49,724 nt of DNA from an uncultured Anaeromyxobacter sp. (lineage in GTDB: Bacteria; Myxococcota; Myxococcia; Myxococcales; Anaeromyxobacteraceae), in the NCBI GenBank assembly GCA_903874275.1, contig CAIQRS010000267.1:1-49724 (forward strand), in the 5' to 3' direction. The translations under genes were made by a program, and so were the position numbers. Numbering within the stretch: position 1 is the stretch's first letter; every line of letters starts with the position of its first letter. Under the pieces are notes generated by a model. The model saw nothing but the letters and a program-made list of their open reading frames with translations, was not told the DNA's origin and did not search any database. Shown piece by piece: positions 41,861 through 46,820 of the stretch.

Positions 41861-42769
41861 CTAGCCCCCGTCGCGCCAGGGCGTGCTGGCCCGGAGCGCG
41901 GCCAGGATGGCGCGGGAGCTGGGCGACCGGTTGAGCGTGTAGAAGTGGATCCCCGGGGCGCCGCGGCGCAGCAGGTCGGCGCACTGGAGGCTGGCGTAGG
42001 CCACGCCCAGCTGGAGCGAGGCCTCGGCGTCGGTGCGCCGCACCCCCATGGCCGCCCGCAGCGGCGGCGGGATGGAGGCGCCGCACATCGCGGTGAAGCG
42101 CTCGATCTGGTCCACGCTGGTGAAGGGCATCACGCCAGGCATCACGGGGAGTGAAATACCGGCGGCCCGGGCCCGCTCCACGAAGCGGAAGTAGTGGGAG
42201 TTCTCGAAGAAGAGCTGGGTGACGAGGAAGTCCACCCCGGCGTCCACCTTCCTCTTCAGATGGGCCAGGTCGAGGGCCAGGTCGCGGGTCTCGGGGTGCC
42301 CCTCGGGGTAGGCCGCCGCCCCCACGCAGAAGCGCCAGCGCTCCGGCTGGGAGCGCACGAAGGCCACCAGGTCGCCGGCATGGGCGAAGCCGTCCGGGTG
42401 CGGGGCGAAGGCCTTCTCCCCGCGCGGCGGGTCGCCGCGGAGGAGCAGCACGTTCTGGATCCCGGCGGCCGCCACGTCGTCGAGGACGTGGGCCACCTCG
42501 TCGCGCGGGGAGCCGACGCAGGTGACGTGGGCCACCGGCTCCACCTCGACGTCGCGCTTGAGCCGCTTCACCAGGTCCACGGTGCGGGCCCGCTCGGAGC
42601 CACCGGCGCCGTAGGTCACCGAGACGAAGCCCGGCCCGAGCGGCCGCAGGGCCTCGACGGTGAGGAAGAGCTGCCGCTCCCCCTCGTCGGTGCGGGGGGG
42701 GAAGAACTCGAAGGAGAATACCGGCTCGCCGCGCTCGCCCGCGAACCGGAGGATGTCCGTGACCTTCAC
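41861..42769 (-). CDS. metF: 5,10-methylenetetrahydrofolate reductase
   Basis: At 302 residues it has the usual MetF length. The TIM barrel has FSFEFFPPRT (substrate Glu), VSVTYGAGGSER (FAD side), HVTCVGSPRDEV, LLLRGDPP, and VDFLVTQLFFENSHYF. It makes 5-methyl-THF for methionine synthesis. The start is GTG 42769, set by a TATACT box 9 nt upstream that shares bases with the -10 of the divergent transcription factor gene. No metH gene or riboswitch is seen. Confidence 0.95.
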   Translation of the reverse strand: MKVTDILRFAGERGEPVFSFEFFPPRTDEGERQLFLTVEALRPLGPGFVSVTYGAGGSERARTVDLVKRLKRDVEVEPVAHVTCVGSPRDEVAHVLDDVAAAGIQNVLLLRGDPPRGEKAFAPHPDGFAHAGDLVAFVRSQPERWRFCVGAAAYPEGHPETRDLALDLAHLKRKVDAGVDFLVTQLFFENSHYFRFVERARAAGISLPVMPGVMPFTSVDQIERFTAMCGASIPPPLRAAMGVRRTDAEASLQLGVAYASLQCADLLRRGAPGIHFYTLNRSPSSRAILAALRASTPWRDGG

Positions 42770-42778
42770 AGGGGCGCG

Positions 42779-42786
42779 AGTATATT
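42779..42786. promoter_or_regulatory. Shared symmetric -10 element of metF and greA/greB
   Basis: The 8-bp AGTATATT reads TATATT on the plus strand (42781-42786) and TATACT on the minus strand (42784-42779). It is 9 nt before the metF GTG on one side and 24 nt before the Gre ATG on the other. The two polymerases could not bind at once, so the genes would compete. Confidence 0.45.
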
Positions 42787-42810
42787 CCGCCGGAGAGGAC
42801 GCACGCGAGA

Positions 42811-43311
42811 ATGAGCACCGAGAAGCCCCCCCGGGCGGCGCGCTACATCACCCCCGAGGGCTTCCAGCGCATCTCGGCCGAACACCAGCGCATCTGGACG
42901 GTGTCCCGCCCCCGGGTGGTGGCGGAGGTCGAGGCCGCCGCGGCGCTGGGCGACCGCAGCGAGAACGCCGAGTACGTCTACGGGAAGAAGAAGCTGCGCG
43001 AGCTCGACCGCCGGCTGCGGGAGCTCTCCGAGCGGATGGACACGCTCACCGTCATCGACCCGAAGCCAAACCCGTCCGGACGGGCCTACTTCGGGGCATG
43101 GGTGACGGTGGAGCACGAGGACGGCACCGAGAAGCGATATCGGCTGGTGGGGCCCGACGAGTTCGACGTCGAGGCGGGCCTGCTCAGCGTGGACGCGCCG
43201 CTGGGGCGGGCGCTGCTCGGCAAGCGCAAGGGGGAGGTGGTTCGGTTCCTCCGCCCGGCCGGGGCCGTCGAGGTCACCCTGGTCCGGGTCTCCTGGAAGG
43301 CTCCGGCGTGA
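42811..43311 (+). CDS. Transcript cleavage factor GreA/GreB family
   Basis: The 166-residue protein has the N-terminal coiled coil with acidic tip, LGDRSENAEYVYGKKKL (about 47-63), which reaches into the RNA polymerase secondary channel to cleave backtracked RNA. The C-terminal globular domain ends in VEVTLVRVSW. ITPEGFQRISAEHQRIW and YVYGKKKLRELDRRL are more like GreB. Its stop overlaps the next gene's GTG (GTGA). A GGAGAGGA ribosome site lies 11 nt before the ATG. Confidence 0.9.
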   Translation: MSTEKPPRAARYITPEGFQRISAEHQRIWTVSRPRVVAEVEAAAALGDRSENAEYVYGKKKLRELDRRLRELSERMDTLTVIDPKPNPSGRAYFGAWVTVEHEDGTEKRYRLVGPDEFDVEAGLLSVDAPLGRALLGKRKGEVVRFLRPAGAVEVTLVRVSWKAPA

Positions 43312-43832
43312 ACGGGCCGCCCGAGGTGATCCGCGACCGGGCCGCCCAGAAGGCGCTGCTCGAGCGCTTCGTCCGGGATCGCCCGGGCGCGCTGCTCCTC
43401 GACGCGGCCTCCCCGGCCCTCCTCGACCTCTTCTCCGGAAAGGTCCTGCCGGTGGACTGGAACCGGATCGAGGGGCTCGCCGAGGCCCGGAACCGCGACA
43501 CCGGGTCCCCGTACCTCGCCCTCCTGCGCGACGACGGGCGGCAGGTGATCCTGGCCGACGTCGGGATCGCCTTCGAGCCGCTCGCTGCCGCGACCGGGCC
43601 GCTCCCGGGGCTGCCCCCGGTGGTCTGCTTCCGCGACTTCGCCGCCACCGCCGGTCGGATCGAGCATTTGCTCGTGGACCACCCGGGTGAGCCGGTCACC
43701 CGCGACCACCTCGACCTCTTCCTCTTCCTGGTCGCGGTCGTGGACGGGGCCCGGGCGGTGGGCTTCGACGTCGCCACCGAGGAGCGGCGGCTGGAACGGA
43801 TCCTGGGCGAGATCGAGGCCCGCTCTTCCTAG
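43308..43832 (+). CDS. Protein of unknown function coupled to Gre factor
   Basis: This 174-residue soluble protein starts with GTG inside the Gre stop, so it is made only if Gre is translated. No known motif is recognised; it has DLFLFLVAVVDGARAVGF in its C-terminal half and no Cys cluster, signal or helix anchor. Its stop overlaps the engB stop as CTAG on the opposite strand. Confidence 0.68.
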   Translation: MNGPPEVIRDRAAQKALLERFVRDRPGALLLDAASPALLDLFSGKVLPVDWNRIEGLAEARNRDTGSPYLALLRDDGRQVILADVGIAFEPLAAATGPLPGLPPVVCFRDFAATAGRIEHLLVDHPGEPVTRDHLDLFLFLVAVVDGARAVGFDVATEERRLERILGEIEARSS

Positions 43833-44461
43833 CCTTCCGGCTCGACCCCGGCCATGGCCGCGATCCGCTCCCACAGGGCCTCCGAGCCGGTCCCCTCCAC
43901 GGCTGAGAACGGGATGGCCTCACCGCGCGGCAGCCCCAGCGCCTGCTCGGCGGCCCGCAGGGCCGGGAGTCGCTGGTTCCGGGTCATCTTGTCCATCTTG
44001 GTGACCGCCACCACCACCTTGCGTCCGGTGGAGCGGAGGAAGTCGAGCGCCTCGTGGTCGCTCGGCTGGGGCGGGTGGCGCCCGTCCACGATGAGGACCA
44101 CCGCCCGCAGCGGCTCCCGCTCACGCAGGTAGGACTCGATCATCGCCACCCAACTCTGCCGCTCGTCCTTGGACACCTTGGCGTATCCGTAGCCGGGCAG
44201 GTCGCCGAAGCGGATCCGGGTCACCTTGCGGGAACCGGAGGGCTGGACCTCGAGCTCGAAGAACTGGAGGGCGCGGGTGCGCCCCGGTGTGTTGGAGACG
44301 CGGGCCAGCCCGGGCTTCCGGGAGAGCGCGTTCAGCATGGAGGACTTCCCCACGTTGCTGCGCCCGACGAAGGCGAACTCGGGGAAGTGGGGAGGAGGGG
44401 GCCATTCCTGCCGTTTCACGGCGGTGCGGAGGAACTCGGCTCGGAAGACGCGAAAGGGCAT
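43829..44461 (-). CDS. engB: Ribosome-biogenesis GTPase EngB/YsxC
   Basis: The 210-residue GTPase has G1 GRSNVGKSS, G2 NTPGRTRAL, G3 DLPGYGYAKVS, G4 TKMDK, and G5 near FSAVEGTG. EngB acts in late assembly of the large ribosomal subunit. The start ATG 44461 gives MPFRVFRAEF, the usual EngB beginning; longer in-frame starts are possible but not needed. TATAGT lies 6 nt before the ATG. The start codon of the divergent OmlA-like gene is only 20 bp away. Confidence 0.95.
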   Translation of the reverse strand: MPFRVFRAEFLRTAVKRQEWPPPPHFPEFAFVGRSNVGKSSMLNALSRKPGLARVSNTPGRTRALQFFELEVQPSGSRKVTRIRFGDLPGYGYAKVSKDERQSWVAMIESYLREREPLRAVVLIVDGRHPPQPSDHEALDFLRSTGRKVVVAVTKMDKMTRNQRLPALRAAEQALGLPRGEAIPFSAVEGTGSEALWERIAAMAGVEPEG

Positions 44462-44467
44462 GGCGCG

Positions 44468-44475
44468 ACTATAAT
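44468..44475. promoter_or_regulatory. Shared symmetric -10 element of engB and OmlA-like gene
   Basis: ACTATAAT gives TATAAT on the plus strand (44470-44475, 5 nt before ATG 44481) and TATAGT on the minus strand (44473-44468, 6 nt before ATG 44461). Both mRNAs should be leaderless. Neither side shows a good -35. Confidence 0.5.
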
Positions 44476-44480
44476 GCCTC

Positions 44481-45020
44481 ATGGTCCGGCTCCCCCACCT
44501 CCTGACGGCATTCCTGCTCCTCCTCGCCCTTCCCGGGACGGCGCTCGCGCGCTCCTGGCAGGGGATCACCCCGGGCCAGAGCACCCAGGCCGACGTGGTG
44601 GCCCGCTTCGGCGAGCCCTCCACCAAGGGCAAGCTGGAGGGGCGCACCGCGCTGGTCTACAAGGCGGAGCAGGCCATCGTCGGCACCCGCCAGGCCCAGT
44701 TCCTGGTCTCCGACGACGGGAAGGTGGCCGAGATCAACGTCTTCCCGGCCTCCCAGCTGGAGAAGGAGGCGGTCCTCGGCACCTTCGGGAAGGACCCCCA
44801 GAAGACCTTCACCGACGACTTCCGCACCGTCTGGCTCTACCGCGCCATCGGCGTGGTGGTCTTCTTCGCGAAGGACGGCGCAGTGGAGGCCATCCGCTTC
44901 CAGGCCGCCGACAAGTCCCACCGCCCCGCACCGGCCGCGGCGGAGGGCCCGGCCGCAGCCGCAGCCCCAGCCCCTTCCCCGGCCGCTCCGGCCACCCCGG
45001 CCGCCCCCGCCGGACGCTGA
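44481..45020 (+). CDS. Exported SmpA/OmlA-like protein
   Basis: The 179-residue protein has a signal peptide (about 1-24, ending ALARS) without a lipobox Cys. The domain ITPGQSTQADVVARFGEPS is the classic SmpA/OmlA (BamE-like) start; a VAEINVFP strand and a C-terminal Ala/Pro-rich tail (about 145-179) follow. BamE helps fold outer-membrane proteins, but many myxobacterial members are of unknown role. The start is fixed by a consensus TATAAT 5 nt upstream. coaE follows after 12 nt. Confidence 0.8.
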   Translation: MVRLPHLLTAFLLLLALPGTALARSWQGITPGQSTQADVVARFGEPSTKGKLEGRTALVYKAEQAIVGTRQAQFLVSDDGKVAEINVFPASQLEKEAVLGTFGKDPQKTFTDDFRTVWLYRAIGVVVFFAKDGAVEAIRFQAADKSHRPAPAAAEGPAAAAAPAPSPAAPATPAAPAGR

Positions 45021-45032
45021 CGGCCCGCCTCC

Positions 45033-45668
45033 GTGCGCCTGGTCGGCCTCACCGGTGGCATCGCCAGCGGGAAGAGCACGTTCGCCTCGGCGCTCCGCGA
45101 CCTGGGAGCGCCGGTGATCGACGCCGACGCGATCGCCCGGGCCGCCGTCCGGCCGGGGACTCCTGCCCTCCGGGAGATCGCCCGCCTCTTCGGAACGGGC
45201 CTGCTCACACCCGACGGCGAGCTCGACCGGAAGGCCATGGCGGCCATCGTCTTCGCCGACCCGGCCGCGCGCGCCCGGCTCGAGGCCGTCGTGCACCCCG
45301 CGGTCCGGGCCGAGGTCGCCGCCGAGACGGCGCGCCTCGCCGCCGCCGGGCACGACCTGGCCTTCTACGACGTCCCCCTGCTCTTCGAGCGCGGGCTGGA
45401 GGGGGAGGTGGACTGCGCGGTGGTGGTGCACGCCCCGCCGGCGCTCCAGCTCACCCGCCTCCAGTCCCGCGACGGGATGACCCGCGAGGAGGCGGAGGCC
45501 CGGCTCTCCGCACAGCTCCCCATCGACGAGAAGGCCCGCCGCGCCGACGTGGTGGTCTCGAACGAGGGGGACCTGGCCTGGCTGCGCTCCCGGGCCGCCC
45601 CGCTGCTGGCCGCCCTGCGCTCGGGCCTCACCCGCCGCCTTCCCAACGCGCCCCCGGCGCGCTATTGA
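45033..45668 (+). CDS. coaE: Dephospho-CoA kinase
   Basis: The 211-residue P-loop kinase starts MRLVGLTGGIASGKST (Walker A at 8-16) and has VIDADAIAR, YDVPLLFE (substrate and magnesium) and VVVSNEGDL near the end. It makes the last step of CoA synthesis. The start is GTG. It lies in a run of plus-strand genes with the OmlA-like protein before it and the reductase after 9 nt; CoA and acyl chemistry thus sit together. Confidence 0.93.
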   Translation: MRLVGLTGGIASGKSTFASALRDLGAPVIDADAIARAAVRPGTPALREIARLFGTGLLTPDGELDRKAMAAIVFADPAARARLEAVVHPAVRAEVAAETARLAAAGHDLAFYDVPLLFERGLEGEVDCAVVVHAPPALQLTRLQSRDGMTREEAEARLSAQLPIDEKARRADVVVSNEGDLAWLRSRAAPLLAALRSGLTRRLPNAPPARY

Positions 45669-45677
45669 CGGGGTTCG

Positions 45678-46820
45678 ATGCCCGACACCCCCGGCACCAC
45701 CCTCTTCACCGGATACCCCGGCTTCATCGGGCGCCGCCTCGTCCACCGCATGCTGGAGGAGGGGCGCGGAGGACGGATGGTCCTCCTCGTGCAGCCCGAC
45801 CAGGGCGCCACGGCCCGCGCCGAGGTGGCGCGCCACGCCCCGGCCAACGTCGAGGTCTGGGAGGGCGACGTCTCGGCCATGCACCTCGGCCTGTCGGGCG
45901 GGGAGTGGAAGTCGCTGCTCCGCGACGTCACCTGCATCTGGCACCTGGCGGCCGCCTCCCGCCTCGACTCGGCCAGCGATATTTCACGACGAGTGAATAT
46001 CGAGGGGACGCGAAACGTCCTCGAGCTGGCCCGCGCGGCGCCCCGCCCGCCTCGGCTCCACCACTTCTCCTCCGCCTTCGTGGCCGGCGACCGCCGGGGC
46101 GTCATCATGGAGGACGAGCTCATGGTGGGGCAGCGCTTCCGCACCCCCTACGAGCAGAGCAAGGCCCGCGCCGAGGAGCTGGTGCGGCGGGCCATGGGAG
46201 ATGTCCCCACCACCATCTACCGGCCGGCCATCGTGGTCGGGGACTCCCGCACCGGGGAGATCGACCGCTTCGAGGGCCCCTACTACCTGGCCATCCTGCT
46301 GGTCACCTCCCCGCTCGCGGTCCCCCTCCCCCTCCCCGGCGACGGGGGCGCGCCGCTCAACGTCGTCCCGGTGGACTTCCTGGTGGACGCCACCCTGGCC
46401 ATCGGCCGGAACCCGGCTTCCGTGGGCAGGACCGTGCACCTGGTCGACCCGGCCCCGCACTCGGCCCGGCGCGTCTACGAGATGATCGCCGAGCGCGCCC
46501 ACCGGCGCATGCCGCGGGTGTCGCTCCCCCACAAGATGGTGGACGCCGTCCTGTCGCTGCCCATCCTGGAGCGCTTCTCCCGCCAGCAAAGGGCCGCCAT
46601 CGAGTCGGTGAACCAGCTGGCCTTCTACAACCCCCACAACCTCCTCGAACTCCTCGACGGGACCGGCGTGCGCTGCCCGCCCATCACCGCCTACCTCGAC
46701 CGGCTCATCGCCTTCGTGCGCGAGCACTTCGAGAAGCGGCAGGCGGTGGCCCGGGAGACCGACGACGACCCCCTGGCGCCGCCCGAGCCGTCCCCGCCCG
46801 AGGAGGAGGAGTCCCGATGA
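45678..46820 (+). CDS. NAD(P)-dependent SDR/acyl-reductase-like protein
   Basis: This 380-residue extended SDR has the nucleotide motif TGYPGFIG (11-18) and catalytic Tyr158/Lys162 (YEQSK) with Ser at about 131-132. A C-terminal helical region (about 270-360) resembles thioester or fatty-acyl reductases more than sugar epimerases. The tail is Pro/Glu-rich. The stop overlaps the MaoC start (ATGA). Context with a MaoC dehydratase and a HadA-type partner suggests a fatty-acyl or polyketide-like substrate. A sugar epimerase remains possible. Confidence 0.78.
   Translation: MPDTPGTTLFTGYPGFIGRRLVHRMLEEGRGGRMVLLVQPDQGATARAEVARHAPANVEVWEGDVSAMHLGLSGGEWKSLLRDVTCIWHLAAASRLDSASDISRRVNIEGTRNVLELARAAPRPPRLHHFSSAFVAGDRRGVIMEDELMVGQRFRTPYEQSKARAEELVRRAMGDVPTTIYRPAIVVGDSRTGEIDRFEGPYYLAILLVTSPLAVPLPLPGDGGAPLNVVPVDFLVDATLAIGRNPASVGRTVHLVDPAPHSARRVYEMIAERAHRRMPRVSLPHKMVDAVLSLPILERFSRQQRAAIESVNQLAFYNPHNLLELLDGTGVRCPPITAYLDRLIAFVREHFEKRQAVARETDDDPLAPPEPSPPEEEESR

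Follow-up and report, generated by a model that had tools for sequence, protein, structure and literature searches.

The 19 bp that separate the start codons of engB and its divergently oriented neighbor probably act as a bidirectional promoter, in which one shared and partly symmetric -10 element, without a recognizable -35, would drive two leaderless mRNAs, and with which engB would have become paired through the loss of a cytochrome gene. The DNA analyzed here (hereafter the window, i.e., the whole stretch of 49,724 bases) lies within a 5.07-Mb assembly, and its relatives by locus are Anaeromyxobacter species and MAGs.

Genes and layout of the intergenic region

The features discussed in the text are the following:

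43829..44461, - strand: engB (yihA/ysxC), ribosome biogenesis GTPase (TIGR03598), predicted leaderless start at 44461
44462..44480, no strand assigned: the complete 19-bp gap between the genes, which probably consists of promoter only
44468..44475, read on both strands: candidate shared two-way -10, ACTATAAT, with TATAAT at 44470-44475 (+) and TATAGT at 44473-44468 (-), based on sequence and family conservation
44481..45020, + strand: small protein with a signal-peptide-like N-terminus, upstream of coaE, predicted leaderless start at 44481
45033..45668, + strand: coaE (dephospho-CoA kinase; PF01121 and TIGR00152 above cut-off), likely co-transcribed with the small gene

The leftward gene had been named engB in the original prediction, an identity confirmed by TIGR03598 (184 bits vs. 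a cut-off of 124.45), and its start at 44461 aligns with the engB starts of relatives. The rightward gene had been described as OmlA-like, a name that the family models do not support: the BamE model gives E = 0.22 and 11.8 bits vs. a cut-off of 23.2. With Pfam below cut-off, no NCBIfam match and no PDB structure match by profile, an OmlA/BamE assignment was rejected. The start and the hydrophobic N-terminus of this small gene are conserved in relatives, the gap that separates it from coaE is 12 bp, and the gene order is maintained in the family. At the other end of engB, an ORF located after greB (43305-43829, +) is convergent with engB; the frame that was scanned gave no match to Pfam.

The gap between the two start codons (44462-44480) reads GGCGCGACTATAATGCCTC. 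On the + strand, TATAAT (6/6 match) is followed by GCCTC (5 nt) and by the ATG of the small gene (44481..44483); on the - strand, TATAGT (5/6 match) is followed by CGCGCC (6 nt) and by the engB ATG (44461..44459). The sequence thus agrees with the earlier description of two starts 19 bp apart and 5 and 6 nt from a -10. The same description called this -10 symmetric, which holds insofar as it can be read both ways (TATAAT/TATAGT), but the flanks of the palindromic TATA core of ACTATAAT are non-palindromic and the symmetry is only partial. From the first T of TANNNT to the start codon, the distance is 11 nt (+) and 12 nt (-), which fits the approximately 11-12 nt that define TA-led leaderless genes.

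It had also been proposed that the -35 of each gene lies inside the other gene. This is correct as a matter of position and geometry, yet neither direction has a detectable -35: in the family promoters (20 for + and 19 for -), the best score among five spacings averaged 2.3/6 (+) and 2.7/6 (-) vs. 2.4 and 2.4 in shuffles. Similarly, no extended -10 is recognizable in either direction, and a sigma-70 scan requiring both hexamers did not list the shared -10 site.

In the window, where GC content is 68-78% (2-kb blocks), TATAAT is observed once vs. 0.12 expected (at least one occurrence in 12 of 100 shuffles), and ACTATAAT with at most one mismatch is observed once vs. 0.44 expected. A loose two-sided pattern, defined as overlapping TANNNT flanked on each side by a start codon at 11-15 nt, occurs five times in 1.43 Mb of family DNA, at sites not checked for genes. 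By itself, the sequence is suggestive of a two-way -10 and does not exclude chance; it is the family comparison that is convincing and decisive for the reality of this element.

Conservation of the -10 in both directions

The family, Anaeromyxobacteraceae, was sampled with 24 genomes, and those compared are the 20 in which engB and the small gene are found together at the locus. The four left out (G002, G010, G014, and G023) have a completeness of 66-81%, and no complete copy of one or both genes was found in them. Within the window's genus, the 19 bp are identical in all three genomes that have both genes (G000, G001, and G003), while the flanking codons differ.

On the rightward side, TATA(A/C/G)T precedes the ATG in 20/20 family genomes, at a distance of 5 nt (18 genomes) or 6 nt (two). 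T-A-T-A and the final T show no variation across the 20 genomes; the fifth base varies (A in 15 genomes, C in three, and G in two). The base immediately before the ATG (column 10) is C in every genome, with 0 changes on the tree, and a C in this place suits a CA initiator.

On the leftward side, the - strand carries TATA(C/G)T in 19 of the 20 genomes: TATACT in 16 and TATAGT in the three of the window's genus. An ATG or GTG is found 12-15 nt from the first T of this element in 18/20 genomes (at 12 nt in four, 13 in one, 14 in two, and 15 in 11). The -10 elements of the two strands overlap in 18/20 genomes, as is characteristic of shared -10 bidirectional promoters. The sole miss among the 19 is G012, which keeps both -10s and has a distant cytochrome start (GTG at -74), so that one side would carry a leader in this genome.

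The most informative position is the A located two bases before the rightward TATAAT (column -2). It has no role in the + hexamer and supplies the final T of the - strand -10. This A is kept in 17/20 genomes, which are related and do not represent 17 independent events; on the tree built from EngB and the small protein, column -2 shows three changes vs. mostly 4-8 at other upstream columns. Three genomes are exceptions. In G005, the cytochrome gene described below is absent, engB has an SD-like AAGG and a 76-bp gap, and the - strand -10 is gone. In G004, two separate and opposed TATACT elements lie about 20 bp apart, one per direction. In G008, the - element is shifted by 2 and its overlap with the + element is retained. 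Changes in column -2 thus fall where the shared arrangement has been lost, split, or shifted, which is the pattern expected from selection in two directions. Conservation of the -10 in both directions across the family gives good support to the original claim of one two-way promoter.

Leaderless starts

With a distance of 5-6 nt between the end of the -10 and each ATG, transcription would ordinarily begin on the start codon itself, and leaderless mRNAs are expected. Both mRNAs of the window are therefore predicted to be leaderless, an implication that was absent from the original prediction. Of the 16 nt that precede each gene in the window, the first 13 were scanned and contain no SD 4-mer (AGGA, GGAG, GAGG, or AAGG); these 4-mers are absent for both genes throughout the window's genus. 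Across the family, an SD-like 4-mer lies upstream of engB in 12/20 genomes, none of them in the window's genus. GGAG, found in 9/20 genomes next to the upstream end of the -10 and 11-12 nt from the + ATG, could be a weak Shine-Dalgarno sequence. An SD with an AT-rich spacer was considered as the cause of the conservation and rejected, GGAG being limited to these nine genomes and absent from the window's genus. In 13/16 genomes with the cytochrome gene, the distance of its start from the first T is 14-15 nt, so that a leader of 1-3 nt is as likely there as none.

Leaderless genes have been scored in 8 of 33 delta-proteobacterial genomes, with a bacterial signal about 12 bp upstream of the start, according to the part covered of PMC3160421. 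Among 931 ORFs of four family genomes, the first T of TANNNT is most often at 12 nt (29 ORFs) and 15 nt (20 ORFs) vs. 0-9 at any other position between 6 and 36 nt, counts that rest on unverified candidate starts and are raised in part by in-frame TAA/TAG where the distance is a multiple of 3. With C or T in the third place, which is free of this in-frame-stop bias, eight ORFs remain at 12 nt and five at 15 nt, with 0-3 elsewhere. The ORFs with the 12-nt spacing are distributed as 15 in G006, nine in G005, three in G000, and two in G022. Thus, the family seems to use TA-led starts, although unevenly, and the genome-wide signal is modest. TATAAT near ATG was rejected as a common signature: within 0-14 nt, G000 has four matches (two from one site) vs. 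two in the reversed control, and at 4-6 nt matches occur in 18 of the 24 family genomes, with 34 in total, 15 of which are this locus, vs. seven in the control.

From the spacing of the elements, we infer that the shared -10 would be recognized in either orientation by RNA polymerase carrying the housekeeping sigma factor. Rightward transcription would begin at or within 1 nt of A44481 and leftward transcription at or near A44461, each start coinciding with a start codon, and both mRNAs would be translated as leaderless messages. Mutually exclusive binding of polymerase at this putative shared -10, which the earlier analysis emphasized, is physically reasonable. It may not be important here, because five bidirectional promoters of E. 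coli had a basal transcription too low for competition (part covered of PMC12825309).

Alternative explanations

Every TATAAT yields TATA on the opposite strand, and TATAAT is a perfect match vs. 5/6 for TATAGT. The promoter could then be one-way, serving the + gene only, with the - strand TATAGT as a by-product of the palindromic TATA and engB transcribed from elsewhere; in the background, 3 of 14 TATA(A/C/G)T sites in 1.43 Mb of samples have an A at -2. However, 19/20 genomes retain the - strand -10, its loss coincides with that of the divergent gene, G004 has a separate -10 for each direction, and a simple scan of 42500-46500 revealed no other leftward candidate promoter for engB. A one-way promoter is considered unlikely.

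Two further readings concern the position of the starts. The promoter might be two-way and produce ordinary mRNAs with short leaders, starting several bases upstream of the start codons, as the GGAG just upstream of the -10 in nine of the 20 genomes and the 14-15 nt spacing of 13 of the 16 cytochrome starts would allow. In the window, however, the -10s are 5 and 6 nt from the ATGs, so that the normal +1 is the start codon itself, and SD 4-mers are absent; short leaders are considered very unlikely. Alternatively, engB or the cytochrome gene could start from the ATG contained in CATG at 44480-44483, in which case the octamer would be coding sequence of the - gene (MRHYSRAMPF...). This start is in frame in all three genus members and in 10/16 cytochrome genes, and it would account for the invariant C before the + ATG. 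It is, however, out of frame in the other six cytochrome genes, the engB starts of relatives agree with 44461, and the - gene would be left without a conserved -10 upstream; overlapping starts are considered highly improbable. A shared two-way -10 with leaderless mRNAs on both sides remains the preferred explanation.

A cytochrome gene as the usual partner

In 16/20 family genomes, the divergent gene is a tetraheme cytochrome c gene (four CxxCH motifs) located between the promoter and engB. The Cytochrome_C554 model is above cut-off for the one cytochrome member scanned. On the tree, G005 is the sister of the window's genus, and neither has the cytochrome gene at the locus, which a single loss would explain most simply. 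Within the window's genus, this deletion would have brought the engB start codon to 6 nt from the -10. The pairing of engB with the shared promoter appears to be derived, the cytochrome gene being the usual partner, and neither point was accessible to the original prediction. The gene order is probably older than the shared -10 form of the promoter. It is a tentative and rather doubtful proposal that the double-leaderless two-way promoter was kept through the divergence of the family and that partner loss moved engB from an often SD-led start downstream of the cytochrome gene to a leaderless start at a shared promoter.

A relocated cytochrome gene was sought and rejected: G000, G001, and G003 have only distant multiheme matches (47-52%, within longer frames), and G005 has none. 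In a second family of the order (f4; loci L027 and L029-L032), a cytochrome-like ORF and the small gene are found in this order beside engB, without the shared -10.

Relation to known systems and significance

The comparisons in this section refer to the parts covered of the cited papers. Shared -10 promoters have been widely reported in bacteria, with start points 7-25 bp apart and most commonly 18 bp (Warman et al., 2021, via PMC10268837 and PMC12825309). The present case resembles them in having one -10 read both ways between divergent genes (PMC10268837; PMC12825309). In the commonest known layout, of 18 bp, positions -7 and -11 coincide, and other layouts also occur (PMC10268837). Here, by contrast, the TATA cores coincide (-12 to -9 vs. 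-9 to -12), and the predicted starts, each at a start codon, are 20 bp apart (44461 and 44481), a distance within the known range. The -11 and -7 positions are at 44471 and 44475 for the + direction and at 44472 and 44468 for the - direction, which is not the reciprocal 18-bp arrangement.

The csoR-cueA divergon of Bradyrhizobium also has overlapping -10s, and its csoR mRNA was mapped as leaderless; it differs in the 42-nt leader of cueA and in the CsoR operator, whereas both sides look leaderless here and no operator was identified (PMC5057107). Leaderless genes led by TANNNT are similar in the position of the -10, some 12 bp ahead of the start codon, and in having no SD (PMC3160421; PMC12340547). 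The parts covered of these two papers contain no two-way cases, and neither "bidirectional" nor "divergent" occurs in PMC12340547. EcoRV-type divergent promoters share the overlapping polymerase sites, but they are under control of a C protein and the C transcript is not leaderless (PMC5333194). In the open-access papers searched, no bidirectional promoter with both sides leaderless was found, csoR-cueA being the nearest. Shared -10 promoters and leaderless genes are thus already known, and it is the predicted double-leaderless, partner-swapped form that is new.

Leaderless mRNAs are thought to be favored by 70S ribosomes. If the proposed arrangement is true, expression of engB in the window's genus could respond to the state of the ribosome, and the outputs of engB and of the divergent coaE operon would be coupled. 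If both 5' ends are on the start codons, the intergenic region would be little more than one -10 and about the smallest two-way promoter able to serve two proteins. The arrangement also suggests a route for gene re-wiring, through deletion of an operon neighbor. Natural variants within the family (shared, shifted, split, and one-sided) allow tests of the role of -10 symmetry. Among them, the G004 locus (L022) offers a naturally split version, with its two -10s standing apart upstream of the small gene.

A second partly symmetric -10, AGTATATT (42779-42786, in the region 42767-42813), is found 1.7 kb away, between the divergent metF (-, GTG at 42769) and greB (+, ATG at 42811). On the - strand it reads TATACT, the first T of which lies 15 nt from the metF GTG; greB has a leader with GGAGAGGA. 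The element is kept in all three genus members, and some relatives have GGTTAC(A/C)AT in its place.
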